Assembly (NCBI RefSeq): GCF_000969835.1
Contig: NZ_KQ033912.1
Span: forward strand, 2,369,920-2,433,919
Length of the DNA: 64,000 nucleotides
Direction of reading: 5' to 3'
DNA from: Parabacteroides goldsteinii DSM 19448 = WAL 12034
GTDB lineage: Bacteria; Bacteroidota; Bacteroidia; Bacteroidales; Tannerellaceae
The position numbers and the translations under genes were made by a program. Positions 17,065 through 40,309 of this stretch are shown here, in pieces. Under the pieces are notes generated by a model. That model had not been told where the DNA came from. It made no database searches and worked only from the letters and a program-made list of their open reading frames with translations. The first letter of the stretch is position 1. The number at the start of each line of letters is the position of its first letter.

Positions 17065-17163
17065 TTTTCATTTAGAGGTAGGTGTAAATCAATTTACACC
17101 TACCTCTAAATGAAAATAGACCTACCTCTAAATCTGTTTACACCTACCTCTAAGTAAAAAGAC
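17065..17163. repeat. 52-bp palindrome plus 22-bp tandem array, four units (array 2)
   Basis: Perfect 25-bp arms at 17065-17089 and 17092-17116 are separated by only two bases (CA). Read as a tandem array, units begin at 17076, 17098, 17120 and 17142, exactly 22 bp apart. The last three share ACCTACCTCTAA, while the first has AGGTAGGTGTAA, the same pattern with C changed to G at five positions. It lies between the ends of two convergent genes. There is no T run after the palindrome, so it is not an obvious intrinsic terminator; a DNA cruciform or protein-binding array is possible. Confidence 0.75.
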
Positions 17164-19463: not shown

Positions 19464-19534
19464 TGTCTCATGGTGTAATGGTAGCACTACAGTTTTTGGT
19501 TCTGTCTGTCGAGGTTCGAATCCTCGTGAGACAA
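19464..19534 (+). tRNA. tRNA-Gln, anticodon UUG
   Basis: The acceptor arms TGTCTCA (19464-19470) and TGAGACA (19527-19533) pair perfectly. The T arm CGAGG-TTCGAAT-CCTCG (19510-19526) is intact. The anticodon arm ACAGT/TCTGT (19489-19493, 19501-19505) encloses loop TTTTGGT with anticodon TTG at 19496-19498. The closing T-T mismatch of that arm is tolerated. CCA is not encoded. Confidence 0.93.
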
Positions 19535-19548
19535 CACAATCTAAATAG

Positions 19549-19585
19549 ACCGTTTATTATCAATATGATAGTAAACGGTTTTTTG
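19549..19585 (+). terminator. Terminator downstream of tRNA-Gln
   Basis: The stem ACCGTTTA...TAAACGGT (19549-19556, 19572-19579), extended by TATCA/TGATA, has a short loop and is followed by a T run. Confidence 0.75.
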
Positions 19586-19621
19586 TTTATGGTAAGAATA
19601 TCAACATCAAAGTAGAATGAT

Positions 19622-20191
19622 ATGGAACAGCTGCAATTGATACAAAGTAAGATATACGAGATACGAGGGCAAAAGGTTATGCTGGACTTTGATTTAGCTG
19701 AGATGTACGGTACTGAAACAAAATACCTGAAACGATCTGTAAAGAATAATATTAGGCGTTTCCCGGCACCGGATTTCATGTTTGAGTTAACAAAGGATGA
19801 GTGGGAGTCTTTAAGGTGCAATTTTAGCACCTTAAACAAAGGTAGAGGGCAGCATCCTAAATACATGCCGTACGCTTTCAGTGAGTTAGGGGTTTCAATG
19901 TTGAGTAGTGTTCTCAACTCTGATACGGCTATTGAAATAAATATATCCATTATGAGAGCTTTTGTTGCGGTCCGTCACCTGGTATTAAATCCTCCGGTTG
20001 ACAGAGTAGGACAGTTGGAGAATCAGGTAAAGGAATTGAAAGAATACATAGAGGATGTATTCGCCGACTACAACGATATCAACGATGATACCCGTATGCA
20101 GTTAGAGCTTATCAACGAAACGTTAGCAGAGCTACAGAGCAAGAATAAGGCACTAAACAAGTCACGACCAAAGATCGGCTTTGTGAAATGA
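19622..20191 (+). CDS. ORF6N-domain protein
   Basis: Protein of 189 residues. Residues 7-95 form the ORF6N DNA-binding domain, known from phage antirepressor-type proteins: IYEIRGQKVMLDFDLAEMYG, TKYLKRSVKNNIRRFP, DFMFELTKDEW, YAFSELGVSMLSSVLNSD. The C-terminal half is a charged helix (VGQLENQVKELKEYIEDVF) suggesting dimerisation. Such proteins are common as isolated genes in Bacteroidales and are probably domesticated phage regulators. It sits directly behind a tRNA gene, a frequent integration point, but no integrase or duplicated tRNA end is visible. Target genes are unknown. Confidence 0.88.
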   Translation: MEQLQLIQSKIYEIRGQKVMLDFDLAEMYGTETKYLKRSVKNNIRRFPAPDFMFELTKDEWESLRCNFSTLNKGRGQHPKYMPYAFSELGVSMLSSVLNSDTAIEINISIMRAFVAVRHLVLNPPVDRVGQLENQVKELKEYIEDVFADYNDINDDTRMQLELINETLAELQSKNKALNKSRPKIGFVK

Positions 20192-20362
20192 AAATACGGT
20201 ATTTTTCTCAATGTATTCACTGCGTGCATTTTGACCAAGGTCTCTCTTTTAGTAGGAAGGATAGGTACAAAGTGTTAAAGTTCTTTTCGATACTTTTTTT
20301 TCTTCATAAAGATGAGTAATATTTCTTGTAATGGGTGTTCTTAATATAAATATCAGAATACC

Positions 20363-21877
20363 ATGACGAACATTTCAAGAAGAACATTTATCAAGACCGG
20401 GGCCTTTGCCGCCGCCGGTCTTACCATCGTTCCCGGACATGTACTGGGGCGTTCTTTCGGGTTTACAGCACCGAGTGATAAACTGAATATTGCCGGGATC
20501 GGAGTCGGTGGAATGGGACGCCGTAACCTGGCGAACATGAGCACGGAGAATATCGTTGCCCTATGTGATGTGGACTGGCACTATGCGGATAAGACCTTTA
20601 AGGATTATCCTAATGCTCGCAGGTTCAAAGACTGGAGAGTGATGTTTGATGAGATCGGCAGTTCAATCGATGCCGTAATGGTGGCTACCCCGGACCATAC
20701 CCATGCCGGTGTGACCGCCCATGCAATTACGCTGGGCAAGCATTGTTATACCCAGAAACCGCTTACACATTCTGTTTACGAATCCCGTCTGCTTACCCGT
20801 CTGGCTAAAAAATATAAGGTGGCGACACAAATGGGTAACCAAGGCAACTCTTTCGACTGGTGCCGCCAGGTGGCGGAATGGATACAATCCGGTATAATAG
20901 GAGATGTGTATGAAGTACATTGCTGGACCGATCGTCCTATCTGGCCGCAGGGTTTGCAGGAACCGAAAACGGTCGTGAAATGTCCGAAGACGCTGGATTG
21001 GGACCTGTTTATCGGCCCTGCCCGGAAACGTCCGTATAATCCCGTTTATACTCCCTGGAATTGGCGTGGCTGGTGGGATTTCGGTACCGGTGCACTGGGC
21101 GATATGGCCTGTCATATCATGGACCCGCTTTATTGGGCGCTCGACCTGAAGTATCCGACAAGTGTGATCGGCAGCTCTACCCTTAGCAACCTGTATTCCC
21201 CTCCTCATGCCCAGGTGGTGACTTATACCTTCCCGGCACGTCCGCCAAAAGGCAACGTGAAGATGCCGGAGGTGAAAGTATATTGGTATGACGGTGGCCT
21301 GATGCCGCCCCGGCCGGAAGAGTTGAAAGACGGGGAGATGATGGGAGATGAGAACGGAGGCATTATCTTCGTCGGAACGAAAGGGAAGATAATGACCGGT
21401 TGTTATGGTATGAATCCCACATTGTTGCCGTTCTCTGCCATGGAGAATTTCAACCAGCCTAAACCGACTATACCTCGTGTCAAAGGAGGTAACGGCGATA
21501 TCTGGAATACGAATGCACATGAACAGGACTGGATTCGTGCGTGTAAGGAACCGGCGGGTAGTAGAACGGAGGCATCGTCCAACTTCCAGTTCTCCGGACC
21601 TTTCAATGAGATGGTTGTGATGGGCGTTCTGGCTGTCCGTCTCTCCGGTTTATACGGTCTCCATCGTGAACTCCAATGGGATGGAGAGAATATGCGTTTT
21701 ACGAATATTTCCCCCAATGATAAGATAAAGATTGTAACGGTAGACGATTTCAAGGTAATTGACGGAGATCCCCGTTTCGACCGACGTTATGCCGACTTCA
21801 GTGCGGCAGATATGGCATCCGAATGGATCAGGCATACCTACGAAAATGGCTTCTCGTTACCCGATATGCCTGAATAA
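20363..21877 (+). CDS. Exported Gfo/Idh/MocA-family oxidoreductase
   Basis: NAD(P)-dependent sugar oxidoreductase homologue of 504 residues with a twin-arginine signal (ISRRTFIKTGAFAAAGL), so it is exported folded with its cofactor. The Rossmann fold begins LNIAGIGVGGMGRRN (about residues 35-50), followed by ALCDVDW and AVMVATPDHTH. The family EKP motif is TQKP here (CYTQKPLTHS), a Glu-to-Gln change that I recall in other exported Bacteroidetes members. The C-terminal substrate domain includes WNWRGWWDFGTGALGDMACH. The sugar isomerase lipoprotein begins 16 bp downstream, so the two likely act on the same oxidised or epimerised sugar. Confidence 0.9.
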   Translation: MTNISRRTFIKTGAFAAAGLTIVPGHVLGRSFGFTAPSDKLNIAGIGVGGMGRRNLANMSTENIVALCDVDWHYADKTFKDYPNARRFKDWRVMFDEIGSSIDAVMVATPDHTHAGVTAHAITLGKHCYTQKPLTHSVYESRLLTRLAKKYKVATQMGNQGNSFDWCRQVAEWIQSGIIGDVYEVHCWTDRPIWPQGLQEPKTVVKCPKTLDWDLFIGPARKRPYNPVYTPWNWRGWWDFGTGALGDMACHIMDPLYWALDLKYPTSVIGSSTLSNLYSPPHAQVVTYTFPARPPKGNVKMPEVKVYWYDGGLMPPRPEELKDGEMMGDENGGIIFVGTKGKIMTGCYGMNPTLLPFSAMENFNQPKPTIPRVKGGNGDIWNTNAHEQDWIRACKEPAGSRTEASSNFQFSGPFNEMVVMGVLAVRLSGLYGLHRELQWDGENMRFTNISPNDKIKIVTVDDFKVIDGDPRFDRRYADFSAADMASEWIRHTYENGFSLPDMPE

Positions 21878-21893
21878 TTAATAGAATAATGTT

Positions 21894-22745
21894 ATGAAAC
21901 AAATAAAGAAAGTATTATTCCCCGTTGTTTGTCTTTTGTTGTTTGCATGCTTTTTGTCTGCCTGCAAACAGGCGAAAGCGGAAAAACAAGATTGGAGGAT
22001 AGCCATACAGTCTTATACATTCCATCTCTTTCCGTTGACGGAAGCGTTGGATAAAACTCAGGAACTGGGAGTGAAGTATATAGAAGTATATCCGGGCCAT
22101 AAGCTGGGCGGAAAATGGGGCGATAAAGTCTTTGGTTTCGACCTGGATACCCAGACCCGGAAAGAGCTGAAAGAATTGGCTGCTTCCAAAGGTATAAAAA
22201 TTATAGCTACGGGTGTGTATGTGGCCGATAAGTCGGAAGACTGGGAGAAGATGTTCAGATTTGCAAAAGATATGGACATGGAGTTTATCACCTGCGAGCC
22301 TGCCTTAAACGACTGGGACCTCGTAGAAAAACTGGCTGAGCAGTACGGCATAAAAATCTCTGTGCACAACCACCCGCAACCATCCGACTATTGGAATCCG
22401 GATAATCTGTTGCAAGCGATTGCCGGCCGTAGCAAGCTGATCGGTTCCTGTGCGGACGTCGGCCATTGGCGTCGTGAGGGTCTGAACCAGCTGGATTGCC
22501 TGAAAAAACTCGAAGGACGCCTCATTTCTCTCCATTTCAAAGACATTGCAGCAAAACAGGAAGGAGAAAAAGAGCAACACGACGTAATCTGGGGAACCGG
22601 TATCCTCGACGTGAAAGGAATGTTGCATGAGTTGAAACGGCAGCATTTTAAAGGTGTTTTCTCTATTGAATACGAATACAACTGGGAAAATTCCGTACCG
22701 GATATAAAAGAGTGCATTCGGTATTTCAATGAACTGACCGAATAA
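21894..22745 (+). CDS. Sugar phosphate isomerase/epimerase-type lipoprotein
   Basis: TIM-barrel protein of 283 residues of the xylose-isomerase-like/AP-endonuclease-2 superfamily. A lipoprotein signal ends LFACFLSAC (Cys24), placing it in the periplasm. Features: IQSYTFHLFPLTEALDKTQE, KYIEVYPGHKLGG, ISVHNHPQPSDYWNP (metal-site His), GSCADVGHWRREGL (Asp and His), ISLHFKDI and FSIEYEYNWENS (Glu). These acidic and histidine residues match the divalent-metal site of the superfamily. It forms a two-gene operon with the oxidoreductase; such exported pairs are frequent in Bacteroidetes and may epimerise or oxidise sugars released outside the cell. Exact substrate unknown. Confidence 0.87.
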   Translation: MKQIKKVLFPVVCLLLFACFLSACKQAKAEKQDWRIAIQSYTFHLFPLTEALDKTQELGVKYIEVYPGHKLGGKWGDKVFGFDLDTQTRKELKELAASKGIKIIATGVYVADKSEDWEKMFRFAKDMDMEFITCEPALNDWDLVEKLAEQYGIKISVHNHPQPSDYWNPDNLLQAIAGRSKLIGSCADVGHWRREGLNQLDCLKKLEGRLISLHFKDIAAKQEGEKEQHDVIWGTGILDVKGMLHELKRQHFKGVFSIEYEYNWENSVPDIKECIRYFNELTE

Positions 22746-22776
22746 GTAAGGATATAGAATAATATCCTATTCACAT

Positions 22777-22829
22777 AAAAAATGAGGTTCAAAGCTATTT
22801 TTATTATAGTCTTTGTATCTCATTTTTTT
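22777..22829. terminator. Bidirectional intrinsic terminator
   Basis: AAAAAATGAG (22777-22786) pairs with CTCATTTTTT (22819-22828), and inner CAAAG (22790-22794) pairs with CTTTG (22811-22815). T runs flank the stem on both strands. It would end the isomerase transcript and also stop leftward transcription from the invertible element. Confidence 0.75.
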
Positions 22830-22896
22830 GTTTTTGTTTTCTAGACTATAAAAATTAAAGGATTCAGGCTATTCCCTCGTTTTAGGTATTGGTATG

Positions 22897-23107
22897 AAGT
22901 TCTTGAGGAACTAATATATTTCTCCCACCGCAAATATAATCTATTTATATTATAAATAGTTAATTCAGGTAGGAAAATCCATTGATCTGTTATAAACAGA
23001 AAAATAATATTTAAAAATGAATATTCGAAGATGATTGCGCTATTCTCATTAGATGGCTGATTTCGAGCTTCTTATCACGAAACAAAGCCATAGTTCCTCA
23101 AGAACTT
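22897..23107. promoter_or_regulatory. Putative invertible promoter element (inverton)
   Basis: AAGTTCTTGAGGAACTA at 22897-22913 is repeated as its exact reverse complement at 23091-23107: a 17-bp perfect inverted repeat enclosing 177 bp. Each arm is itself a near dyad (AGTTC...GAACT), as expected for a recombinase site. The enclosed segment is very AT-rich and non-coding. Its only TAnnTTTG box is on the minus strand (22931-22938), 18 bp inside the left arm, pointing away from the sigma gene that begins at 23154. Inversion would point it at the sigma gene with a leader of about 75 nt. No recombinase gene is nearby, so it would act in trans. Confidence 0.7.
22931..22938 (-). promoter_or_regulatory. 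-7 box inside the putative invertible segment
   Basis: CAAATATA on the plus strand is TATATTTG on the minus strand, matching TAnnTTTG. The -33 region is AT-rich without a clear TTG, so the promoter would be weak or activator-dependent. In the present orientation it fires leftward into the bidirectional terminator. Confidence 0.5.
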
Positions 23108-23153
23108 GGTATTACCACTGATAGATATTGTTGTTAATTAAGACTTATATAAC

Positions 23154-23738
23154 TTGGGGCCTATTGATATACATAGAATAAAGGAAGGGGATCAGGAAGC
23201 TTTTAAAAGATTCTTTGTTCACTTTTATCCGAAACTGCTGTCGTTGGCTTGTCGTTTTGTGGATGAACAGGCAGCGAAAGATCTGGTGCAGGATATCTTT
23301 ACATTCTATTGGGAACAAAAACAACAAATCGATGTAAATAGCGTACAGTCCTATCTCTTTAAATCCCTTCAAAATCGCTGTCTGAATTATTTAAAACATC
23401 AAATGGTCGTAGAAGAGTATAATGCTAAAATACGAATAGCCGAAGCACGTATCGCTTTTCTAAATGACCGGACCGATTCAAATGATGTACTGAAACAAGT
23501 GATCGATTGTGATATTCGTGAACAGATCGAAGCTTCCGTGAAAAAATTACCACCTAAAGCGGCAGAAGTGTTCCGGTTGTGTTATCATGAGGATTTGCCG
23601 CATAAAGAAATTGCTGATAAGCTTGGAATATCACCACGTACGGTAGCAGTTCATGTCCGTAATGCAGTACTTTTCCTGCGGGAAGATTTAAAAGATTTGC
23701 TGATACTATATATCGCCTTTTGTCGGATTATAAATTAA
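23154..23738 (+). CDS. ECF (FecI-like) RNA polymerase sigma factor of PUL A
   Basis: Sigma factor of 194 residues expected to transcribe the adjacent SusC/SusD genes. Region 2 spans about residues 8-82 (IHRIKEGDQEAFKRFF, LSLACRFVDEQAAKDLVQDI, YLFKSLQNRCLNYLKHQ). Region 4 is at about 125-185, with EVFRLCYHEDLPHKEIADKL and GISPRTVAVHVRNAV forming the helix-turn-helix. No ATG is available: the frame is closed by TAA at 23139-23141 and the only plausible start is TTG at 23154, giving MGPIDIHRIKEGD. A weak start may keep sigma levels low. The gene lies 46 bp downstream of the putative inverton and 78 bp upstream of its anti-sigma gene. Confidence 0.9.
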   Translation: MGPIDIHRIKEGDQEAFKRFFVHFYPKLLSLACRFVDEQAAKDLVQDIFTFYWEQKQQIDVNSVQSYLFKSLQNRCLNYLKHQMVVEEYNAKIRIAEARIAFLNDRTDSNDVLKQVIDCDIREQIEASVKKLPPKAAEVFRLCYHEDLPHKEIADKLGISPRTVAVHVRNAVLFLREDLKDLLILYIAFCRIIN

Positions 23739-23754
23739 TTTGAACTTTTTTCAT

Positions 23755-23803
23755 TTTTGACTACGTAGTTTCCGATGCCCTAGTTGTCTTCTTTATATAA
23801 ACG
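23755..23803 (+). promoter_or_regulatory. Candidate ECF-sigma autoregulated promoter upstream of FecR (PUL A)
   Basis: TTTTGACTACGTAGT (23755-23769) and TATATAAACG (23794-23803) recur almost exactly upstream of the PUL B fecR gene (40956-41002) with similar spacing (39 against 37 bp between starts). There is no TAnnTTTG box. A shared element at the same place in two otherwise divergent loci suggests a promoter read by the cognate sigma factors. Confidence 0.6.
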
Positions 23804-23816
23804 ATAAGAAAGATCT

Positions 23817-24806
23817 ATGAATGAAGAAATACTAATACGATTTTTAATCCACCGATGTACTTCGGAAGAAATAAAGGTGGTCGATCAATGGATTGCTTCT
23901 GATCAGGCAAATGCAGATTGGCTGTTTGAGATGGAGCGTATCTGGAGTTTGAAAGACCAGCTACGTTTTTCCGACAAACAAGAGGTCGAAAGGGCCTATG
24001 CGCGTTTTATGTCCGGATTGCAGGAAAAGGAAGTAAAAGTGGAAATAAGCCGGAGACGTCCTGTTTATATTTCATGGATGAAATATGCTGCTGCAATTGT
24101 GCTGATCGGATTATTAAGTACTAATCTTTATTTTTTATTGCAGGAACAACCCTCTTCCATGAATACGATTGAAGTCCCTAATGGGCAAAGGGCTTCTTTG
24201 ACCTTATCCGATGGTACAAAAGTCTGGCTGAATTCTCATAGTAAATTTACCTATCCTGCTCAGTTTTCATCAAAGATGCGGGATGTTAAGCTTGAAGGCG
24301 AGGGCTTTTTTGAAGTCGCACATAATGAAAAAGCGCCGTTTGTCGTACATGCTGATTTACTCCAGGTAAAAGTATTGGGCACGAAGTTTAATGTGAGAGC
24401 ATATAATGAAGAACCGTCTTCCATAACGTTGGCAGAAGGAAAAGTGGAAGTCGCTACAAATGACAATGAACATAAAGTAACTCTAAGACCGAATGAGCAG
24501 GTTACCTATTCCAAAGATGACGGCCTGGTAGTCAATAAAACGGTCAACGCCTCTTTAGTCAAATCGTGGACGGTGGGCGAAGCGGCTTATATTAATAAAC
24601 GACTGATCGATATTGTAGTTGATCTGGAACGTCGTTTCAATGTTCATATCACAGTGAAAGATCAGGAACTCAATACGGAATTATTTACTTGCCGTTTCAA
24701 GGAAACAGCTAAAATAAATCAGATACTTACCTTATTGAAAGATACCCGCAAACTGGATTATAAAATTCAGGGGGATCATATACAGATTTATAAACCTATA
24801 AAATGA
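23817..24806 (+). CDS. FecR-type anti-sigma factor (PUL A)
   Basis: Inner-membrane regulator of 329 residues linking the SusC signalling domain to the ECF sigma factor. The cytoplasmic N-terminus (1-85) would bind sigma. One membrane segment lies at about 88-108 (YAAAIVLIGLLSTNLYFLL). The periplasmic FecR domain follows (EVPNGQRASLTLSDGTKVWL at 119-138, LEGEGFFEVAHN, VKVLGTKFNVRAY). A C-terminal DUF4974-type domain ends DYKIQGDHIQIYKPIK and would contact the STN domain of the receptor. Length and order are typical. The downstream receptor carries STN, completing the trans-envelope signalling set. Confidence 0.93.
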   Translation: MNEEILIRFLIHRCTSEEIKVVDQWIASDQANADWLFEMERIWSLKDQLRFSDKQEVERAYARFMSGLQEKEVKVEISRRRPVYISWMKYAAAIVLIGLLSTNLYFLLQEQPSSMNTIEVPNGQRASLTLSDGTKVWLNSHSKFTYPAQFSSKMRDVKLEGEGFFEVAHNEKAPFVVHADLLQVKVLGTKFNVRAYNEEPSSITLAEGKVEVATNDNEHKVTLRPNEQVTYSKDDGLVVNKTVNASLVKSWTVGEAAYINKRLIDIVVDLERRFNVHITVKDQELNTELFTCRFKETAKINQILTLLKDTRKLDYKIQGDHIQIYKPIK

Positions 24807-24845
24807 GAATGCTTATGAAGAAGACATGGATGTTATAAAAATGAA

Positions 24846-24876
24846 GAACCGAAGATGCTGCAAACATCCCCGGTTC
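24846..24876 (+). promoter_or_regulatory. Hairpin in the FecR-SusC intergenic leader (PUL A)
   Basis: GAACCG (24846-24851) pairs with CGGTTC (24871-24876), and inner GATG (24854-24857) pairs with CATC (24865-24868). There is no T tract, so it is more likely an RNA-processing or stability element than a terminator. PUL B has a hairpin at the same place. Confidence 0.4.
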
Positions 24877-24940
24877 GGATTAAGCGAGTAACGCATTAGA
24901 GACAACCTAAATTTATTACTAACTAATCATTTACAAATGT

Positions 24941-27900
24941 ATGAATTTTATTAAGAAGTGTATGCCATGCGGTACGCATAAATCGTCATGGCTCCGGAAA
25001 AGTCTATTTATTATGAGGTGTATCTTATTGTTTTTATTATTGGGTACAATGCAAATCACGGCGAGTGTCACTTACTCGCAATCGGTAAAACTATCGTTGA
25101 ACGTGGAGAACATGACAGTGCAGGATGTCTTGTCGATGATAGAGCAGAAAAGTTCATTCTATTTTACTTACAACCTGAATCAGGTAAATGTAAACCGTAA
25201 AGTATCTGTTAATGTAAAGAATAAACTGGTGACGGATATTCTGGATGAAATATTCAAAAGTGAGAATATCAGGTATACGATCAGTGATAAGCATATTGTA
25301 TTATATAAAGCTGATAAATCTGAATTACCAGGTGTGAATCAGAAACTTAAAGCAATAACAGGTGTCGTGCTTGATAATAATAACGAACCTATTATCGGTG
25401 CAAACGTGTCCATTCCGGGAACAAGTACAGGAACAACTACGGATATGGACGGAAAGTTTACCTTGGAAGTGCCCGACAATGCAACAATTGAAATCTCTTA
25501 TATTGGTTATATAACCCAAAGTATATCTGTAAGCAAAAAAAATAATTTTTCGATTATTCTGAAAGAAGACACCCAGGCTCTGGAAGAGGTGGTCGTAGTT
25601 GGTTATACCTCTCAGAAGAAAGGACTATTGGCTGGATCTGTAGAGACAACCAAATTTACAGAATCGTTGGCACAGATCCCGACAAACAGTGCCGCACAGT
25701 CGTTGGTTGGTAAAATGTCTGGTGTGCATATCTCCGTTCCTGCCGGTAAGCCGGGAGAACAGGCAAGTGTAGGGGTACGTACTGGTACGACGTGGAATAC
25801 CTCACCGATGTTGTATGTAATTGACGGGGCAGTACGCGATGCGACTACGTTCAACAATTTAAGCCCCAATGAAATTGAGTCGGTAAGCATATTGAAGGAT
25901 GCCGCTTCGGCTGCTGTTTATGGAGCACGTTCAGATGCAGGGGTTGTTTTGGTTACGACACGTTCCGGAATTTCAGGGAAGATATCGGTTAACTATACAG
26001 CCAATTTCTCTGCCGATTTTGCTACGCAGGAGGTAAAGTTGAACAACCTTTACCAACAGGGGTTGACGGTAAACCAAGCCTATAAGAATTTCGGCTTGAC
26101 TGCTCCACAAGGAGAAGGCTGGAGCGATGAAGAGCTTGAATGGGCCAAAAACCTTCCCGGACAAGGTTTTAGTATGCTTGATGACACATGGCATACGCCT
26201 TACGTGATGAATCATGCATTAAGCGTCAGCGGCGGTTCGGAAAGAATTAAATTTTTCGGGGCTGCTAATTACTATACCCAGAACGGTTTCATGGAATCAA
26301 CAGAATATAATAAGTTGAACATGCGTTTGAATGTGACGGCTGACATAACCAAAGACTTACAGTTGTATGCTTCTATCGCCAATACGAATACTAAATATGG
26401 TTCTTCTCCGACGGAAGGTACAGATGCAACTTACACGAAAGCACGTGTATCATTTGAATACATGCCTTCACGTTCGCCTGACGGTAAGTGGATTGGAGAC
26501 GGATGGGCATACGGTAACCCGGCTGCGGCTGCTGAAGGTGCTTCCGGTTACAGAAGAAATACCACGATGAATCCGGAAGCTAATGTCAGCTTGACTTATA
26601 AATTACCATGGGTAAAAGGATTGAGTGCAAAAGTATCTTACATGGGAAGTTGGAAGACGCAACGTGGCAAAGACTACACCGCGTTGCAAAAGTTCTATTA
26701 TCCTAAGAAATCGGGTGCAAACAATCATATCATCGATGTAAACGATTTGAGTAATTATTATGTCAGTAATGAAGGCGCCGGTATCTCCGGCTGGGGTAAA
26801 TGGTGGGTTAACCAGCAGTTGAATTTCCAGATCAACTACGATAATCGCTGGGGAGACCATCATGTCAACGCAGCTGCCGTATACGAGGCTTCGAACAACG
26901 ATTATCACTATGTATGGGCAAAACGCGACCAGTTCCCGTTGTATCAGACCGACCAGTTCTGGGCAGCCGGTTCTTCTACAGACAAACAATTTTCCAATGG
27001 TGGTCCTGACACGGATGGCGGACGTGCTTCTTGGGTATTTATTGGCGGTTATGATTATGCTAATAAATATATCTTGAATTTCTCTGTACGTTATGACGGC
27101 TCTATGAATTTTGCACCTAGCGAACGTTGGGGGGTGTTCCCGGCTGTATCGGCTGCTTGGGTAGCGTCTGAAGAAAGATTTTTGAAAGATGTTGAATGGA
27201 TCGACTTCTTAAAGCTGCGCGGATCTGTCGCTTTAACTGGTAACGATGCTGTCGGTGGATGGCAATGGCAGACCAGTTACAAGAGTGGCGGTAACTACAT
27301 GTTTGGCGAAAACGCAGCTGTGAATAATGGTTTGCAGTATGGAAGTTTGGTGAATGAGTACCTGACTTGGGAAAAATCTACCGGTATCAACGTCGGTGTA
27401 GATTACCGCTTCCTGGATCATCTGCACGGTGCTGTTGAATATTGGCACAAGCATACGTTTGATATCCTTGGTAACCGTCAAAATTCACTACCGACCACTT
27501 TCTCCAAGACGATGCCGGCTGAGAACTATGGTGTGATTAATGGACAGGGATTCGACTTTAGCGTGGGTTGGGAAGACCGTTTTGGTAAAGTGAATTGGCA
27601 TGCTGACGTAAACCTCTCTTACGGATGGAACAAAGTAGAGGTACAGGATTATGCTGCCGGTTTGCTTGATTGGGAGATCCCTGTCGGTAAAGACCGTAGT
27701 TATATTACTGCCTACGAAGGACGTATTCTTCGTTCGCAAGCAGAGGTGGATGCGTTTAAAAAAGAGAATCCTAATTATGTTATGCCGACAGGTGGTGGTG
27801 TAGACCTTCGTCCCGGTTCGTTTGTCTACATTGACAAGAGCGGTCCTGACGGAAAGAAAGATGGCATCATCGACCGTTATGACAAGGAGATTCTTTATAA

Positions 27901-28381
27901 CAATAACAACCCGATTTATATGGGCTTGAACTTGGGCGCGACTTGGAAAGGGCTTTCTGTGGAAGCTACATTCACTGGCAAATTCCACAACTATAAGAAT
28001 TTTGGTTCACTAGCTGATTATCATGGTGGTCAGATGTGGAACAGGGAATGGGTTGAAAACTCCTGGACACCGGAGAATCCCAATGCAGAACTGCCTATGC
28101 TAGCTCCGCGCGATTATCGCTCATATGCTTGGACCGACGTTAATTATTATTGGAAAAAGGCGAATTATATCCGTCTTTCCAATTTGAATATTGGTTACAC
28201 CTTTGATTTCGCCCAACCATTGGGTAATGCAATTTCCAGTATCAAGGTGTTTGCAACAGGTACAAACCTGTTCTATATCTCCGGATTCAAACACTGGGAT
28301 CCGGAATTGAACCCGGGATGGAGCGGTGTTGGTTACCCTGTGATGAGAACTCTGGGTGGTGGTATAAGTGTTAATTTTTAA
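24941..28381 (+). CDS. SusC-like receptor with STN signalling domain (PUL A)
   Basis: Outer-membrane transducer/importer of 1146 residues. An N-terminal hydrophobic segment (about 22-45) is followed by a secretin/TonB short N-terminal (STN) domain at about 50-123 (VKLSLNVENMTVQDVLSMIE, FYFTYNLNQVN, YTISDKHIVLYK). Next come a carboxypeptidase-D-like domain at 139-212 (ITGVVLDNNNEPIIGANVSI, ISYIGYITQSISV), the linker ALEEVVVVGYTSQKK, the plug (LYVIDGAVRD, VSILKDAASAAVYGARSDAG) and the barrel ending GGGISVNF. STN shows that it signals to the FecR protein encoded just upstream. The plug has ARSDAG where RGANG is usual, a small divergence. The first Met is preferred; the internal Met at residue 25 would give a shorter signal peptide. 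Confidence 0.95.
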   Translation: MNFIKKCMPCGTHKSSWLRKSLFIMRCILLFLLLGTMQITASVTYSQSVKLSLNVENMTVQDVLSMIEQKSSFYFTYNLNQVNVNRKVSVNVKNKLVTDILDEIFKSENIRYTISDKHIVLYKADKSELPGVNQKLKAITGVVLDNNNEPIIGANVSIPGTSTGTTTDMDGKFTLEVPDNATIEISYIGYITQSISVSKKNNFSIILKEDTQALEEVVVVGYTSQKKGLLAGSVETTKFTESLAQIPTNSAAQSLVGKMSGVHISVPAGKPGEQASVGVRTGTTWNTSPMLYVIDGAVRDATTFNNLSPNEIESVSILKDAASAAVYGARSDAGVVLVTTRSGISGKISVNYTANFSADFATQEVKLNNLYQQGLTVNQAYKNFGLTAPQGEGWSDEELEWAKNLPGQGFSMLDDTWHTPYVMNHALSVSGGSERIKFFGAANYYTQNGFMESTEYNKLNMRLNVTADITKDLQLYASIANTNTKYGSSPTEGTDATYTKARVSFEYMPSRSPDGKWIGDGWAYGNPAAAAEGASGYRRNTTMNPEANVSLTYKLPWVKGLSAKVSYMGSWKTQRGKDYTALQKFYYPKKSGANNHIIDVNDLSNYYVSNEGAGISGWGKWWVNQQLNFQINYDNRWGDHHVNAAAVYEASNNDYHYVWAKRDQFPLYQTDQFWAAGSSTDKQFSNGGPDTDGGRASWVFIGGYDYANKYILNFSVRYDGSMNFAPSERWGVFPAVSAAWVASEERFLKDVEWIDFLKLRGSVALTGNDAVGGWQWQTSYKSGGNYMFGENAAVNNGLQYGSLVNEYLTWEKSTGINVGVDYRFLDHLHGAVEYWHKHTFDILGNRQNSLPTTFSKTMPAENYGVINGQGFDFSVGWEDRFGKVNWHADVNLSYGWNKVEVQDYAAGLLDWEIPVGKDRSYITAYEGRILRSQAEVDAFKKENPNYVMPTGGGVDLRPGSFVYIDKSGPDGKKDGIIDRYDKEILYNNNNPIYMGLNLGATWKGLSVEATFTGKFHNYKNFGSLADYHGGQMWNREWVENSWTPENPNAELPMLAPRDYRSYAWTDVNYYWKKANYIRLSNLNIGYTFDFAQPLGNAISSIKVFATGTNLFYISGFKHWDPELNPGWSGVGYPVMRTLGGGISVNF

Positions 28382-28392
28382 ACGTAAATTTT

Positions 28393-30255
28393 ATGAACAA
28401 CTTAAATATAATAAAGAAAAGTGGACGTAAATTCCTGACTTTGTCGGTATGCGTATTGGCGTTGTCTTCTTGCCAATTAGATTACGAGAACAAATCAGCA
28501 ATTAATCCGGATAATGTGTGGCAGAATGAAACAATGATCCAAGCATATCTGACCGATATCTATAGCGGTATGGTGCCGGGATGGTCTTCTACGTCTGATA
28601 CTGACACGGACCTTACAACGGATTCAAACGATAGCATGAGCGAGTGGTTGCGGGGGGTAAACATCTCTGCTTCCAGCCGTGGGGTCAACTTCGATTATGG
28701 AATTATTGACAAGATCAACTATTTGCTTGAACAGATGGAGACGGTGCCGGAAAGTGTCATGGCTCTCAAAGACAAAGATGCTGTGGTGGCACAAGCCAAG
28801 TTTTGGCGGGCTTACCGGTATTGGTCTTACGTAAAGGACTTGGGTGGTGTTCCCCTGATCCTCAAATCGCAGGATGTGAACGATCTGCCTTCGTTGATGG
28901 TGAAACGAAGTTCTACATCGGATTGTATGGCTCAGATTCTGAAAGACTTGGACGATGCCATTCAAGCACTTCCGGATCGTTGGTCAAGTGCTGACTATGG
29001 ACGTATTGACAAATGTGCTGCCATGGCTTTCAAAGGACGCGTACAAATGTGGTATGCTAGTAAGTTATTCAATCGCTCCAACGACAAGGGGCGTTGGGAA
29101 ACTGCCTATCAAACTAATAAGGCAGCTCTTGAATATGCTGAAAAGAATGGTTATAAGTTGATGGATAAATTTAGTGATATTTGGCTGACGAAGGGAAAGT
29201 CCAATACGGAAGCCTTGATCTTTAGACATTACAAATATCCAGATACGTATTACGATATGAATCAGTATCTACCTGAAGATATTACCCATGGATGGGCATG
29301 CCGCCAAGTACCGCAGACTCCCCAGCTTCTCGCTTTCCCGCTGAAGGATGGTTCTTCTATGGCTATCTACGAAAACGAAGAGTATAAGAGCCAGAAGCTG
29401 GATGTAAACCGCCTTTCCACAGATGCTGCCTACAATGCAGATATTCTCGACAAGTTGGTGAACGAAATGGATCCGCGTTTCTATGACTCTTATTCGGTTC
29501 CGGGTTGTGATTTCCCGTCGTTGGAAATTCCTGCCGGACAGTATTTCTGGACTTCGTATGTGAAGGTAACCCCGTTCTATAAAGCGATGTCCAACATACA
29601 GCTCGAACGTAATGCCGGAACTACCCATTATGGCTCATTCTTCCCGTTAAAAGCCATTACTCCGGGATTGAATAATGCAGATTCATATAAAGGTGAAAAT
29701 AATGCTATCTGTTTACGCTTGGGTGAAGTTTACCTGAACCTTGCCGAATGTGCTGCCGAAGCAGGTCATATAAATGAAGCGTTGGGTTATGTAGCTGCAA
29801 TCCGTAAACGTGCAGGTATCGATAAAGGTGCGGGCGCTATCGGGTATGGGCTGGATGTGTATAATACGCTCGAAGGGGTTCGTCGTTTGTTATACAACGA
29901 ACGTGCAGCTGAGTTGTCTCAAGAAAACTTCCGTTATGGCGACCTCCGCCGTTGGATGAATTTCGACAACATCAATGCCCAGAAACATTACAACAACCTG
30001 TATGTGGTATTTAACGGGGATGAGGAAGAAGCTGGAAAATTCGACTGGACACGTACGTTGGAAGACGCTGAAACGCAGAAATTTTTCCATATTGATTTCG
30101 TGCCTAATGTGAAGCAAGTTGAAGTTTCCACGTTTAATATCTCCACCAAGCATTGGTTCGGTGCCATTGGGGATAAGACTATGGGAGCAAACTTCGACAA
30201 TGATATGTCACAACAAAACAATGAATGGGGTGGCTCATTTGATCCATTGAAGTAA
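28393..30255 (+). CDS. SusD/RagB-like lipoprotein (PUL A)
   Basis: Surface glycan-binding partner of the PUL A receptor, 620 residues, starting 11 bp after the SusC stop. Lipobox ALSSC (Cys27). SusD features: INPDNVWQNETMIQAYLTDI, AKFWRAYRYWSYVKDLGGVP, MAFKGRVQMWYASKLFN, LRLGEVYLNLAECAAEAGH and RAAELSQENFRYGDLRRWM. The C-terminal extension beyond the RRWM block (about 70 residues) is longer than in the PUL B SusD. A good intrinsic terminator begins 25 bp after the stop, so the enzyme genes beyond may be transcribed at a lower level by read-through. Confidence 0.94.
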   Translation: MNNLNIIKKSGRKFLTLSVCVLALSSCQLDYENKSAINPDNVWQNETMIQAYLTDIYSGMVPGWSSTSDTDTDLTTDSNDSMSEWLRGVNISASSRGVNFDYGIIDKINYLLEQMETVPESVMALKDKDAVVAQAKFWRAYRYWSYVKDLGGVPLILKSQDVNDLPSLMVKRSSTSDCMAQILKDLDDAIQALPDRWSSADYGRIDKCAAMAFKGRVQMWYASKLFNRSNDKGRWETAYQTNKAALEYAEKNGYKLMDKFSDIWLTKGKSNTEALIFRHYKYPDTYYDMNQYLPEDITHGWACRQVPQTPQLLAFPLKDGSSMAIYENEEYKSQKLDVNRLSTDAAYNADILDKLVNEMDPRFYDSYSVPGCDFPSLEIPAGQYFWTSYVKVTPFYKAMSNIQLERNAGTTHYGSFFPLKAITPGLNNADSYKGENNAICLRLGEVYLNLAECAAEAGHINEALGYVAAIRKRAGIDKGAGAIGYGLDVYNTLEGVRRLLYNERAAELSQENFRYGDLRRWMNFDNINAQKHYNNLYVVFNGDEEEAGKFDWTRTLEDAETQKFFHIDFVPNVKQVEVSTFNISTKHWFGAIGDKTMGANFDNDMSQQNNEWGGSFDPLK

Positions 30256-30344: not shown

Positions 30345-32540
30345 ATGAGACAAATGAAAAATTGTTTATTAAAATGGGTGTGGGTAGTTATATCTTCACT
30401 ATTCTTTTCGTGCAATCAGGTAGAGATGAATATTTGCTTTGAAACGGATTATGTAGTATTAAAGATAGATTCTACTGGATTCTTAACAAGTATCTACAGT
30501 AAAGTCGATAATATAGAATATTTATCTGATAAGAAAAGTTCTCCATTATTGGCTCTTTATGCCGGTAATGATCAGGTAATTTTGCCTGTTTCGGCTTGGC
30601 AAATCGACGAAAAGGTGATGTTAACGTATACCAATGGAGCTGAAGCTGTTATAGAAATAGGAGAAAAAGAAGAGTACTTGACGTTTAAACTTATATCACT
30701 TACTAATCGTGGTAAAGCGGATCATGTAGTATGGGGACCTTATTATACTACGATACGTGAATATATTGGAGATTTGTTGGGAGTAGTCAGTAATGAACGT
30801 TGTACGATTGGTATGGTCGCCTGTAATGACAATACGAATACCGGCCTTCCTACAGATGGAGATATGCACCAAATGTATTACAGAGTACATACACCAGATC
30901 CGATCAAATATCCTTTGCCGGATTCGTTATATGAGGGGCAGCGATTGCGTATAGGTGGAGATGGCATTAGCGATGTTGCTTTTACGAATCGGAAAGAAGG
31001 TCATTTCTTTTTCAATAAAGGGAATGGGGCTGAGTATATACCGGAATATGGTTCTTACATTGTAATGAGTTCGCGTGATCGCCGTGCTACCCGTGATATA
31101 TTTTTTACACTTATACCCGGTTTTGAAAATGTGAATGTACCTAAGCATCATCGGGTAGAGGCTGTAGATGAGGATGTTTTAGGATCATCGGTTGCATTTT
31201 TTGTTTGTCCTAAAGAGCATACGTTAAAACTTTATGAGAAGGTCGTTTTGGAGGAAGGACTGCCTTATATTACCCAGCAAGGGAAATGGGTTCGTGATCC
31301 GAAAGCTGCTTGTGCCGATTTAGCATGGTGGGGACGGCATGATAGTTTGATCTCTTATGCAACTCAGTTGGGAGTACGTGCTGTACAGGATGAAGGTTTG
31401 GGAGAGTATTATGTCAACCCGGCAAATCGATGGGCGGATAAGATGATTTCGTATGGTGGAAAACAAATTTCTATCGCTGAGTTTACAAAAATGACGAACG
31501 AAGCTGGAATCGCTTATGGGTTACATACGTTGTGTGAGTTTTTGCAACCACATTGCAGTGATGTCAGTCCCATTCCTAATGATAGCTTATGCATGGTGTT
31601 GAAGACAACGATCACTCACGATTTGAATGCTACCCAGACGGATATTTGTGTGGCTGATACCAGTTGGTTAAATGAATGGGGCACTTGGCATTGCAATAAA
31701 CTCAATGTTTTGAAATTAGGAAAAGAACTACTTACTTACGAAGGAGTTACAATAACCCGACCTTATACATTGAAAGGTGTGAAGCGTGGTGCTTACAATA
31801 CGGTGGCTCAAACACATAAAGCGGGTGAGGTGGTAGCAAAATTACAGATGAACTGTTATAATGGATTTGTTCCGGATATGAATCTGCAAGACGATTATGC
31901 TGATTATTATGCCCGGTTATTGGTTGACGGTGGCATGGATTATGTTGATTTTGATGGACAGGAAAGTTTCATGTATCAAGGACATGGCTATTATTCAATG
32001 AAACGATTCTATCGGAATTTGTTTGAGAAGTTTCATACGTATGGAGGAAATGAACTTCGTGTGATGGGATCTGGTATCATGTATGGTAATTGGCTATATA
32101 TGGGGAATGGAAATATTGGTGGAGGAAACAATATGTTTAACCCTGTAACCAATTCTTTCGGAATTCAGGGGAAAGATGAAAGGAACGGTAATGTTAATAA
32201 TTTCATTTGTCCCACTTTCGGTATCCAAAATTTCCAATCGGAATGGGATGAACAAGTGATAGAGAATCTACAATCAAAAGCTGTTGCATGGAATGCTACT
32301 TATATGCTTGGTTTAAGTGAAAATGCTGTTGAAAAATGTTTGGATAAAGAGCGTGTGTTTAAAGCTTTTCGTGTGTGGGAAGATGCCCGACGTGCAGACA
32401 TTTTTTCTAAAGAATTGAAAGAAGAAATGAAAGCTCAAGAGAACCGGTACCATTTGGAACGTATCAATGATCATATATGGACGCTATATACAGTGGATAT
32501 CTCCGGTGAGCATGTCAATCCGAGAACTCTTATAAATTAG
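30345..32540 (+). CDS. Large lipoprotein, putative glycoside hydrolase of unassigned family (paralogue of 35619-38090)
   Basis: Lipoprotein of 731 residues (lipobox LFFSC, Cys23). An N-terminal beta-rich part (LKIDSTGFLTSIYSKVDN, SPLLALYAGNDQ, VVWGPYYTTIREYIGDLLGV) precedes a central region like a TIM barrel (YGLHTLCEFLQPHC, SDVSPIPNDSL, MDYVDFDGQESFMYQGHGYY). The same blocks recur in the protein at 35619-38090, so the two are paralogues. Here the C-terminal beta domain of about 90 residues is missing. The conserved acidic YVDFDG and the preceding H-T-L block are candidates for the active site. I cannot assign it to a CAZy family. The gene looks more AT-rich than the SusC gene upstream, which may reflect separate acquisition. 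It probably cleaves the glycan imported by this PUL. Confidence 0.7.
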   Translation: MRQMKNCLLKWVWVVISSLFFSCNQVEMNICFETDYVVLKIDSTGFLTSIYSKVDNIEYLSDKKSSPLLALYAGNDQVILPVSAWQIDEKVMLTYTNGAEAVIEIGEKEEYLTFKLISLTNRGKADHVVWGPYYTTIREYIGDLLGVVSNERCTIGMVACNDNTNTGLPTDGDMHQMYYRVHTPDPIKYPLPDSLYEGQRLRIGGDGISDVAFTNRKEGHFFFNKGNGAEYIPEYGSYIVMSSRDRRATRDIFFTLIPGFENVNVPKHHRVEAVDEDVLGSSVAFFVCPKEHTLKLYEKVVLEEGLPYITQQGKWVRDPKAACADLAWWGRHDSLISYATQLGVRAVQDEGLGEYYVNPANRWADKMISYGGKQISIAEFTKMTNEAGIAYGLHTLCEFLQPHCSDVSPIPNDSLCMVLKTTITHDLNATQTDICVADTSWLNEWGTWHCNKLNVLKLGKELLTYEGVTITRPYTLKGVKRGAYNTVAQTHKAGEVVAKLQMNCYNGFVPDMNLQDDYADYYARLLVDGGMDYVDFDGQESFMYQGHGYYSMKRFYRNLFEKFHTYGGNELRVMGSGIMYGNWLYMGNGNIGGGNNMFNPVTNSFGIQGKDERNGNVNNFICPTFGIQNFQSEWDEQVIENLQSKAVAWNATYMLGLSENAVEKCLDKERVFKAFRVWEDARRADIFSKELKEEMKAQENRYHLERINDHIWTLYTVDISGEHVNPRTLIN

Positions 32541-32545
32541 ACAAT

Positions 32546-35443
32546 ATGTTAAAACATAAATTATTACGCGCATGTGTGTTGCTGTGTTTGGCTCTGAATA
32601 TCCAACAAGGAAAAGCACAAGAGACAAACGAATTGGAATATGGAGAGGCGATCCAAGGGGTGAATCAAGATCCGAAGCAAAAAAGCATCGGTAGTAAGCC
32701 TTATGAAATGGAAGGGCGTAGGGAAGCCAGAGAACCACTGTTTACTTTTGATGATTGTACGCAGTGGCAGGTTCGGGCAAATCAATCCGAAGTTGCATTA
32801 TATCGAACTAAAGAACAACGGGTAATAGGCGATTACAGCGGAAAAGTCGTTTACAAAACCAAACAGGCAAAAGCCGGATTTCGTGTAGAGCTTGTTGAAC
32901 CTTATAAATTCGATAAAGAGTGGGATTGCATTAACTTTTGGAATTATGGAAACCATTGGTTATGGGAGAACAGTGGAGAAGCCATGACCCATTATGCCGT
33001 TATCCAGGATGCCAAAGGCCGGGAGATAACAATTCCGTTCATGCAAGAATGGTTATGGCGGAATATGAATTATAAGTATTGGTTTTTGAACCATATCAAA
33101 TTAAATGATAGTATTGCCCGACCGATTACATTCATCGGATTGGAATTTAAAGGAAATGGTACAAAGCCGGATGTGGAGAACAATATTTTCTTGGGTCCTA
33201 TCTATGGATATCAAGAAGTTTTGAAGCCAATGAAGTTTAAACCGTTCCCGGAGAAATTGCCTTTTCCGCTTCGTGAAGAGACGATCTTGCCGACGAATAA
33301 GACGACCGGATTTAGCAATCGTGTGGAGCAACAAGGCGAGAAATTCCTTTTCTCATACGAAGGGAAAGATGCTAAGCTGACGTATCAAGTAGATCCGGCT
33401 TATCCGATAGGCGGCGTGACACTCTTGTGTGACGGACAAGAGAAAAAGGTGAATGCCAACGCTAAGATCCTTTTTGAAAAACGGACAGAAGCAGAGTGGA
33501 AAGTTATGGATAAGAGAGTAGAAAACGATACTTTGTTCATTCGTTATAAAGCAGTAGGAAAAGGTTTGAACCAACGCTTTGACTGTTCCTATACGATCAG
33601 GCAGAAGTCTTTGATTTGGACGATTGAAGAAAAAGCAGCGGATGGGAAAGTGGAAGAGATCTGTTTAGGCACAACAGATAACGTGTCGGATGGTAAATTG
33701 GTGGGTGTTCCTTTCTTGGTGTATAACCCTTTTGCCAATGATTCCTATACGGCTGATGCTCCCAGTATACTGTATGCCGACAATCTGTTCTATTTGACGA
33801 TGTTTGATTGGTATTATACCAATGCTTCCATGTATTATGGTGGAGAACAGGGTATCAAAGAGGGTAAAGCGACCTATAATGGAGGTGTCAGATATTATCC
33901 GTTGAACAATAAAAAGCGCAACCCGTTGCGCGAACGTCTTTTCATTAATGTATCACCGGATGTACACGAAGTATTCCCGACGATTGATAATCCGGCTTCT
34001 CCGATGCGTTCTAACCAGGTAGATCGTTTGTGGGCGATCAACGGGGGAAGTGATCTTCCTAAATTAGGAAAGTTCGTGACTGATTTACGGTCTAAAGGTG
34101 TAGAAAATGTTAGTATTCGCTATCACGAAGATTTTTGGCGTGCTGGTGGAGAGAGCTATACATTTCGAACAATACCTAACCCTGATCTGGGTACGGAACG
34201 TTTGAAAGAATATGTCCGTTTTGTACAAGGTCAAGATTGGAGGATTGGTTTTTACTCAAATTACATGGATTTTGCCCCTGTAAATGCTCTGTGGAATGAA
34301 GATTGGGTACGTATCAGCCACAAGGATTATGGTTGGGGACCTGCTTGGTGTAGATGTTATGCCAATAAAGTAACGATCGGTTGGGAACAACAGGCCCTTT
34401 TGGCACCGCAAATACATAAGACATTTGGCACCAACTTTTCTTATTGCGATGTGGAGACTTGTATTTCTCCTATGGACCGGGTGGATTACGATTATCGTAC
34501 TCCTGGAGCAGGAAAATTTCGTACTGTATTTGAATATATTGGTATGACTTTGATGAACGAACGCCGCGCATATCAAGGTCCAGTTTATTCGGAAGGTGGC
34601 ACACATTGGTTCTATGCAGGATTGTTAGATGGGAATTATTCACATATGAATCATAGTTTGCCTATATTTCCTGATTTTCAACTGTTGAAGATTAATCCAT
34701 TGGAAATGGATGGAATGTCTAATGTCTCTAACGAGGCCTATGTCGCTTATGCTTACGCTTTCGGTAATATCGGTATTTTGTCTGATGGTTTTGATGCAGT
34801 TCGTAGATATGCTTTCTTGCAACCATTCCAAAATAGCTATTCGATGATTCCGGTGAAAAGTATCCGGTATTTTGATGGAAAATCTTATGTGTCATCTTCA
34901 GATGCAATCAAAAAAGATCTGTTAAAATCTCCTTGTATCCAGGTTGAATATAATAGTGGTTTGAAGATTTATGCCAACTTTTCCGATCAACCGTGGTTGG
35001 TTAAAGAAGATAACCATGATTATTCATTACCTAAATATGGAACTTTGGCTGTTTTGCCTGGAAGCCGTTTGTTTTCTGTTTCTTCTACAAACCCTGGCTC
35101 ATCAACAGGTAAATTACTTGATAAAGTTTATTCTGATCATTTATTCTATATTGATACGTATGGGGAAGTAGAAAAGGGAGAATTTGGAGGTAAGGGTTCT
35201 TATATGTTGAAGAAAGAAAAATTTGGATGGGAAATCATCCCTCTGAAGGATTTAGAGGAGGTTGATTTCAATTTGTCTTTAATTGGATTTTCGGAGTTAG
35301 GCGTAGATATAGAAGCTATAGATAAGAATGGAAATATCATAACAGTGATAAACCAAGTCCCTTTAGCTGATCAAGTTCATTTTGAACATAAACCTCAATA
35401 TTACAAATATAAGATTTGCCCAGTTTCATCCATATCCAAATAA
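32546..35443 (+). CDS. Large exported putative glycoside hydrolase, unassigned family
   Basis: Exported protein of 965 residues with a signal peptide ending GKAQ. Apparent layout: beta-sandwich N-terminal domain (FTFDDCTQWQVRANQSEVAL, then INFWNYGNHWLWENSGE), a second beta domain with super-sandwich character (residues about 250-480), then a TIM-barrel-like region. That region contains VDRLWAINGGSDLPKLGKFV, VSIRYHEDFWRAGGESYTF, WRIGFYSNYMDFAPVN, FSYCDVETCISPMDRVDYDY and GPVYSEGGTHWFYAGLLDGN. The order of a beta super-sandwich before a barrel recalls the GH101/GH129 type of endo- and exo-N-acetylgalactosaminidases, but the resemblance is weak. DVET and SEGG carry candidate acidic catalytic residues. 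It starts 5 bp after the previous gene. Substrate unknown. Confidence 0.6.
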   Translation: MLKHKLLRACVLLCLALNIQQGKAQETNELEYGEAIQGVNQDPKQKSIGSKPYEMEGRREAREPLFTFDDCTQWQVRANQSEVALYRTKEQRVIGDYSGKVVYKTKQAKAGFRVELVEPYKFDKEWDCINFWNYGNHWLWENSGEAMTHYAVIQDAKGREITIPFMQEWLWRNMNYKYWFLNHIKLNDSIARPITFIGLEFKGNGTKPDVENNIFLGPIYGYQEVLKPMKFKPFPEKLPFPLREETILPTNKTTGFSNRVEQQGEKFLFSYEGKDAKLTYQVDPAYPIGGVTLLCDGQEKKVNANAKILFEKRTEAEWKVMDKRVENDTLFIRYKAVGKGLNQRFDCSYTIRQKSLIWTIEEKAADGKVEEICLGTTDNVSDGKLVGVPFLVYNPFANDSYTADAPSILYADNLFYLTMFDWYYTNASMYYGGEQGIKEGKATYNGGVRYYPLNNKKRNPLRERLFINVSPDVHEVFPTIDNPASPMRSNQVDRLWAINGGSDLPKLGKFVTDLRSKGVENVSIRYHEDFWRAGGESYTFRTIPNPDLGTERLKEYVRFVQGQDWRIGFYSNYMDFAPVNALWNEDWVRISHKDYGWGPAWCRCYANKVTIGWEQQALLAPQIHKTFGTNFSYCDVETCISPMDRVDYDYRTPGAGKFRTVFEYIGMTLMNERRAYQGPVYSEGGTHWFYAGLLDGNYSHMNHSLPIFPDFQLLKINPLEMDGMSNVSNEAYVAYAYAFGNIGILSDGFDAVRRYAFLQPFQNSYSMIPVKSIRYFDGKSYVSSSDAIKKDLLKSPCIQVEYNSGLKIYANFSDQPWLVKEDNHDYSLPKYGTLAVLPGSRLFSVSSTNPGSSTGKLLDKVYSDHLFYIDTYGEVEKGEFGGKGSYMLKKEKFGWEIIPLKDLEEVDFNLSLIGFSELGVDIEAIDKNGNIITVINQVPLADQVHFEHKPQYYKYKICPVSSISK

Positions 35444-35618
35444 TAACAAGTATGTTCGGTATTATGTCTCTTTTAAGGATTAATAGCCGGACACCAGTAA
35501 ACAGTAATAATCCATTGAATAGGCAATTATTTGCTATGTTTAATGTGAATGGTTGTCTTTATTTTTGTGTAGTAAATATATGTAAATTAAGAAATCTGAT
35601 AATCTAATTTGTGGCCTT

Positions 35619-40183: not shown

Positions 40184-40213
40184 TTTGTAATAATAATAAT
40201 AGGTTTATATTTG
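40184..40213 (+). promoter_or_regulatory. Probable promoter of the PUL B sigma gene
   Basis: -33 TTTG (40184-40187), 18-bp spacer, -7 TATATTTG (40206-40213), about 97 bp upstream of the sigma ATG. Unlike PUL A, this promoter is fixed and already points at the sigma gene. Confidence 0.6.
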
Positions 40214-40309
40214 TATCGGAATTAGGATATGTTGCTAGGTGAAAAATAATTATCTTTTGCCGAATTGTTAACCTGACAGCTATTTAATGAGGAGAATTAC
40301 AGTATAAAC

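Follow-up and report, generated by a model that had tools for sequence, protein, structure and literature searches.

A putative invertible promoter before the ECF sigma factor gene of a SusC/SusD-type uptake locus in Parabacteroides

Introduction

How is the sigma factor gene of a nutrient uptake locus itself switched on, when the DNA directly before it is enclosed by an inverted repeat? The window considered here, meaning the whole 64-kb stretch of DNA that was analysed, carries a perfect 17-bp inverted repeat (22897-22913 / 23091-23107) that encloses 177 bp immediately before an ECF sigma gene. A preliminary description had read the enclosed segment as a phase-variable promoter, and had proposed a search for related genomes with the segment reversed as a test of that reading.

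In the excerpts of the published work on which we draw throughout, the invertible loci of gut Bacteroidales comprise capsule, surface protein, EPS, restriction-modification and SusCD loci, 'among others', and the -7 consensus is given as TANNTTTGY (PMC12632263). For B. fragilis, 13 regions are assigned to Mpi, three SusC/SusD clusters and nine other regions to Tsr0667, and a further system to Tsr19 (PMC4747536); Tsr0667 also appears in PMC11852207. In bowel inflammation, the largest differences in orientation are reported for regions within or close to SusC/SusD-like systems and upxY genes (PMC10939037), and for P. vulgatus sigma/anti-sigma pairs and an invertible capsule promoter are both treated, separately (PMC13114119). 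No invertible promoter before a sigma gene is described in these excerpts or in the titles and abstract openings listed by our literature searches; within that literature the mechanism is thus known, while the sigma factor as its target looks new.

Results and Discussion

The inverted repeat and the locus behind it

The features of the locus, by window position, are as follows.

22777-22828, no strand assigned: palindrome with an A-run and a T-run, a possible terminator for leftward OFF-state transcripts and for the upstream gene
22897-22913, plus strand: left arm AAGTTCTTGAGGAACTA, with the core AGTTC-TTGAG-GAACT, a putative recombination site
22914-23090: invertible segment of 177 bp, presumed to be OFF as it stands in the window, judging by its reversal in P. 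gordonii, P. goldsteinii and genome G038
22931-22965, minus strand: conserved, leftward-pointing promoter block AATTAACTATTTATAATATAAATAGATTATATTTG with the -7 box TATATTTG at its end
23091-23107, plus strand: right arm TAGTTCCTCAAGAACTT, the exact reverse complement of the left arm
23154-23738, plus strand: ECF sigma factor gene with a TTG start (Pfam Sigma70_r2/r4; TIGR02985 at 152.5 bits, cut-off 126.4), the presumed target of the switch
23817-24806, plus strand: FecR-like anti-sigma factor gene (PF04773, PF16344), 78 bp after the sigma gene and presumably co-transcribed with it
24807-24940, plus strand: gap between fecR and susC, with a hairpin (GAACCG...CGGTTC)
24941-28381, plus strand: SusC/RagA TonB-dependent transporter (TIGR04056, 760 bits) with an N-terminal STN signalling domain (PF07660)
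28393-30255, plus strand: SusD-like lipoprotein (PF07980, PF14322)
30345-32540, plus strand: 731-aa protein with a lipoprotein-like signal, visibly similar to the 823-aa protein below when the translations are read, unscored
32546-35443, plus strand: 965-aa secreted-looking protein without a family match
35619-38090, plus strand: 823-aa putative glycoside hydrolase, with a predicted fold resembling galactosidases and galactosaminidases

The repeat stands as it had been described. None of 60 first-order Markov surrogates of the 64-kb window contained a perfect inverted repeat of at least 17 bp at a distance of 40-700 bp, the longest inverted repeat in any of them being 14 bp. The window holds just two copies of its core, AGTTC-N5-GAACT, one in each arm; in 100 shuffles of the window the mean was 0.08 copies, and two copies were reached once. 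No Rfam match was found between positions 20000 and 26000. One other 17-bp repeat exists in the window (17072-17153) and lies inside a small palindromic repeat array, where inverted and direct copies of ATTTAGAGGTAGGTGTAAA are clustered (17070-17153).

The sigma ORF begins with TTG, as previously stated, at 23154; an in-frame TAA precedes this start codon, and P. faecis, P. gordonii and P. goldsteinii all share the TTG. Control of SusC/SusD loci by an ECF sigma factor and an anti-sigma factor of the FecI/FecR/FecA type is a known arrangement, and the genes found here, ECF sigma (TIGR02985), FecR, SusC with STN and SusD, follow in the order of that system. What would distinguish this locus is that the sigma gene's own transcription lies under a DNA switch. 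By-eye comparison showed the 3' half of the fecR-susC gap to be much alike in the same three relatives, and we presume that the gap contains the sigma-dependent susC promoter; its hairpin is a possible attenuator. None of the three proteins encoded after susD (30345-38090) had a Pfam, NCBIfam or PDB sequence match. Structure prediction was applied to the 823-aa protein only, which has 577 homologues, and the predicted fold is galactosidase-like; the protein may be a GH36/GH27-like (clan-D) glycoside hydrolase. The substrate of the locus is presumably a glycan.

Two neighbouring features deserve mention. A second ECF sigma locus in the window has a fixed TATATTTGT at 40206-40214, approximately 96 bp upstream of its sigma gene (window 40206-40310); no perfect inverted repeat of at least 13 bp was found near that gene, and the locus is a non-invertible counterpart that offers a natural comparison. 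On the other side, TyrRS and the inverton are separated by a block (19464-22745) that holds a tRNA-Gln, an ORF6N-domain gene, an oxidoreductase gene and a TIM-barrel gene; since TyrRS ends approximately 330 bp before the inverton in P. gordonii, this block has been either gained or lost.

Both orientations occur among orthologous loci

The window closely resembles Parabacteroides faecis (92.7% over 13.4 kb). In genome collections holding one genome per species, a sigma alignment scan gave three loci at 87-94% identity, those of P. faecis, P. gordonii and P. goldsteinii, and a search of 38 genomes of the genus added one more orthologous locus, in genome G038. The same site cores lie before the sigma gene in all four. 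While the P. faecis segment has the orientation of the window (OFF), the other three are reversed (ON). Related genomes with a reversed segment, as the proposed test had asked, were found by alignment, and for P. gordonii by BLASTN as well, and in these three the promoter faces the sigma gene, as had been expected of an inversion.

The reversal is clear from the alignment scores. Window and P. gordonii segments align at 65.0 when inverted (132/186 identical) versus 8.5 in the same orientation, and window and P. goldsteinii segments at 58.0 versus 11.0; 100 base shuffles of each gave means of about 7 (7.1 for the P. gordonii comparison) and a maximum of 19.5. BLASTN against P. gordonii placed window 22893-23025 on the opposite strand at 79% identity, with same-strand hits on either side. 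The G038 locus was returned on the opposite strand, and a flank test called its segment inverted relative to the window and the same as in P. goldsteinii. Orientation splits by clade, with two OFF (window, P. faecis) and three ON (P. gordonii, P. goldsteinii, G038), both orientations being seen between species only.

With the five segments (window and four orthologs) placed in the same orientation, all 32 arm columns tested are invariant (16/16 per arm). In the promoter block AATTAACYATTTATARTATAAATAGWTTATATTTG 32 of 35 columns are invariant, more than in any other interior stretch of that length, whereas the rest of the interior has only 57 of 144. Judging from these columns, selection keeps both the putative recombination sites and the promoter.

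Twelve more distant sigma loci (45-63% identity; two are the same stretch) had no perfect repeat of at least 12 bp in the 700 bp upstream, except for one unrelated 12-bp match, and the inverton arrangement is thus confined to one clade, as far as seen. Viral contigs gave a single weak locus in the sigma alignment. The 16-base arm pattern matched at least 120 viral stretches, and in the 80 matches listed each stretch had a single match, which we take as chance.

A promoter inside the segment or elsewhere

The sole TAnnTTTG inside the segment is TATATTTG, on the minus strand at 22931-22938, which points away from the sigma gene; 18 bp separate it from the 15-bp core in the left arm. The plus strand contains no such motif throughout 22601-25100. 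On both counts the preliminary description was right, having claimed a single -7 box facing away from the sigma gene and none between the right arm and the sigma start. Its third claim, a bidirectional terminator at 22777-22829, held in part: the palindrome is real and its minus-strand fold stable (-16.8 kcal/mol, z -7.2), but a simple terminator scan listed no terminator at 22777-22828, and the terminator role is therefore plausible rather than established.

An alternative is a segment that flips while the sigma gene is mainly controlled from another promoter, missed by a TAnnTTTG scan. ECF promoters do not match TAnnTTTG, and an autoregulatory one might lie between the right arm and the sigma start codon, a stretch that is partly conserved but only 46 bp long. 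Read-through from upstream would be another source of sigma transcripts, although the palindrome may stop it. The P. faecis OFF segment carries TAGTTTTG facing the sigma gene, so that OFF may leak; the most conserved interior block is nonetheless the invertible promoter. On balance, we consider it unlikely that the sigma gene is mainly controlled elsewhere.

A class of putative AGTTC-N5-GAACT switches

The site is not peculiar to this locus. AGTTC-N5-GAACT occurs 54 times in P. gordonii (G001), 45 times in P. goldsteinii (G002) and 46 times in G038, versus twice in each for a control pattern read backward; in an order-level survey of 119 genomes, G001 alone had many sites (54), the other 118 having 0-11. 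Among the 50 sites listed of the 54 in G001, 34 form 17 inverted pairs with exactly complementary spacers; with a limit of 1.5 kb, G038 and G002 each yielded a further 13. This makes 43 pairs from the three relatives, or 45 pairs (90 arm sides) when those of the window and P. faecis are included.

On 38 of the 90 arm sides, in 36 of the 45 pairs, a TAnnTTTG box faces outward no more than 70 bp from the arm, compared with four sides for an inward-facing one and with a mean of 5.0 (maximum 12) arm sides in base shuffles; many of the 45 pairs are orthologous to each other, so they are not independent. The distance from box to arm is 14-19 bp in 26 of the 38, and 18 bp in the window inverton. Nineteen of the 43 pairs have a susC gene no further than 400 bp away; of these, 12 are OFF, two are ON and one lies between divergent susC genes, the other four having no such box.

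An ECF sigma gene lies within 400 bp of six of the 43 pairs, at three loci. The first is the window's ortholog in P. gordonii, P. goldsteinii and G038. The second occurs in P. gordonii and G038, and also in P. goldsteinii, with one mismatch in the partner site; a divergent transaldolase gene makes its target less certain. The third, in P. goldsteinii, is OFF, with 42 bp between it and the sigma gene that follows. Identity among the sigma proteins of the three loci is only 27-30%. Beyond the window's locus, an AGTTC inverton surely precedes a sigma gene at one further locus, and probably at another.

This class bears on whether the segment is a relic, which flipped once in the ancestor of one clade, became fixed and no longer switches. 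Orientation follows clade in all five loci, and in 12 of 14 orthologous inverton groups the members that can be called share a single orientation, as a relic would have it. These groups were made by hand from best flank matches, leaving out weaker paralogous rows, two of which are inverted (L307/L337 and L337/L148), and one P. gordonii member (L140) is ambiguous. The sigma locus is one of the two groups with both orientations; a second inverton, at a susC locus (L134/L309/L331), is likewise found in both, P. goldsteinii being reversed relative to P. gordonii and G038. Arms that remain invariant (32/32) around a diverged interior (57/144) are not expected of a relic, and both the second reversed locus and the large class of sites in these genomes, with spacers exactly complementary within pairs, also argue against it. 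We regard a relic as improbable. Nevertheless, orientations that split by clade, are seen between species only and differ in two groups of 14 suggest that flipping is slow, biased or partly historical.

That the repeats are operators of a transcription factor, such as a looping repressor, is very hard to sustain: every site is itself palindromic, and a regulon might equally well number about 50 sites per genome, but we rejected this reading because the segment is reversed between species and because the N5 spacers, free between pairs, match exactly within pairs only, which fits strand exchange and not protein binding.

Search for the recombinase

PF00589 matched 66 times in G001, 23 in G038 and 48 in G002, and PF00239 four, six and six times; no recombinase among these matches could be tied to the AGTTC-N5-GAACT sites. 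In P. gordonii, the sequence fetched around each of the 17 pairs contains none of the 66 PF00589 matches. The only recombinase inside the fetched region of any pair in the three genomes is a PF00589 match of P. goldsteinii (G002:C50:14651-15142, a 460-aa frame within L336), 1.1 kb from the pair C50:16268/16487. One PF00589 match of G038 lies 1.2 kb from an unpaired site, and another overlaps an unpaired site.

Several reciprocal best hits among the fetched recombinases are common to the three genomes, in a comparison covering 47 of the 66 G001 matches (as loci), 20 stretches for the 23 of G038 and 20 stretches for the 48 of G002. They include a single-copy protein (L369/L390/L347; 72-94% identical), located in G038 at G038:C8:4022714-4023640 and 94% identical in G002 and 72% in G001, which is a candidate invertase by conservation only. 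Genus searches with two of the common recombinases did not cleanly track site number, and genomes G013, G014 and G015, with 22-25 sites, had no member above 49%.

Proposed mechanism and its relation to known systems

The reversed orthologs, the conserved arms and promoter, and a class of switches built alike support the earlier reading of a phase-variable sigma promoter, and we think it very likely that the segment is an invertible promoter targeting the ECF sigma factor of a FecI/FecR/SusC-type uptake locus. A trans-acting site-specific recombinase would presumably invert the 177-bp segment by strand exchange between the AGTTC-N5-GAACT sites on either side. With the segment as it lies in the window, the promoter would read left toward the palindrome, which may stop transcription, and the sigma gene, without a recognisable sigma-A promoter, would be OFF. 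In the flipped orientation transcription would start at the promoter and run through the right arm into sigma and fecR, the ON state. ON cells would hold the sigma/anti-sigma pair ready, so that a signal from SusC could release the sigma factor and activate susC and the genes downstream; OFF cells would have no sigma factor, and their susC could not be induced whatever the substrate. Inversion would thus license sensing, while the substrate would decide induction. With an inverton directly before susC, by comparison, ON would simply mean expression, whereas here it would mean the ability to respond.

Whether this extends to the genus is an even call: Parabacteroides may invert DNA at the level of the regulator, with ECF sigma promoters flipping at two or more sigma loci that are only distantly related; a given glycan would then be sensed and imported by a licensed subpopulation alone. 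As the sigma switches belong to a set that would also flip susC promoters, a single recombinase would determine which uptake systems are expressed as well as which are inducible. If this is true, the ability to respond would itself be phase-variable, a bet on which cells notice a nutrient, which would bear on the uneven glycan response of clonal gut populations and on how diet or host glycans select orientations.

In design, the nearest parallels are the capsule promoters of B. fragilis and their serine recombinase Mpi, where repeats likewise surround a promoter whose orientation means ON or OFF (PMC4747536, PMC12632263). Mpi, a single invertase, acts at a distance on many scattered loci, much as we envisage for the present class; the likeness is one of design, and the target there is a surface biosynthesis operon instead of an ECF sigma factor. 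Tsr0667 also inverts several loci and has susC/susD targets, as have the 19 of 43 pairs near susC described above; the excerpts make no mention of sigma targets for it, and we liken the two by description, claiming neither the same site nor the same enzyme. A further parallel is IVp-I and IVp-II of B. fragilis (BF2766/Tsr19), where a local promoter and a distant one are flipped by the same tyrosine recombinase, and where replacing the TAnnTTTG -7 sequence weakened promoter activity (PMC4747536). The affected region contains an ECF sigma gene, BF3407, but the promoter lies before a seven-gene cluster there and directly before the sigma gene here; disruption of BF3407 left the first gene after it unchanged (PMC4747536).

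Other arrangements of paired sites

Two further arrangements of inverted pairs were seen in the relatives. In G038, an inverton (L308, G038:C8:156200-161800, at 2011-2448) lies between two divergent susC genes, so that flipping would choose which susC is expressed. A longer inverted pair of 574-575 bp was found in P. gordonii (L145, 4521-5095, with 33-bp arms) and at L305 (2021-2595) and L327 (2024-2597). It overlaps a pair of divergent fecR genes, or one gene of the pair, and a susC gene follows each of the two; inversion could exchange the 5' parts of these anti-sigma genes.
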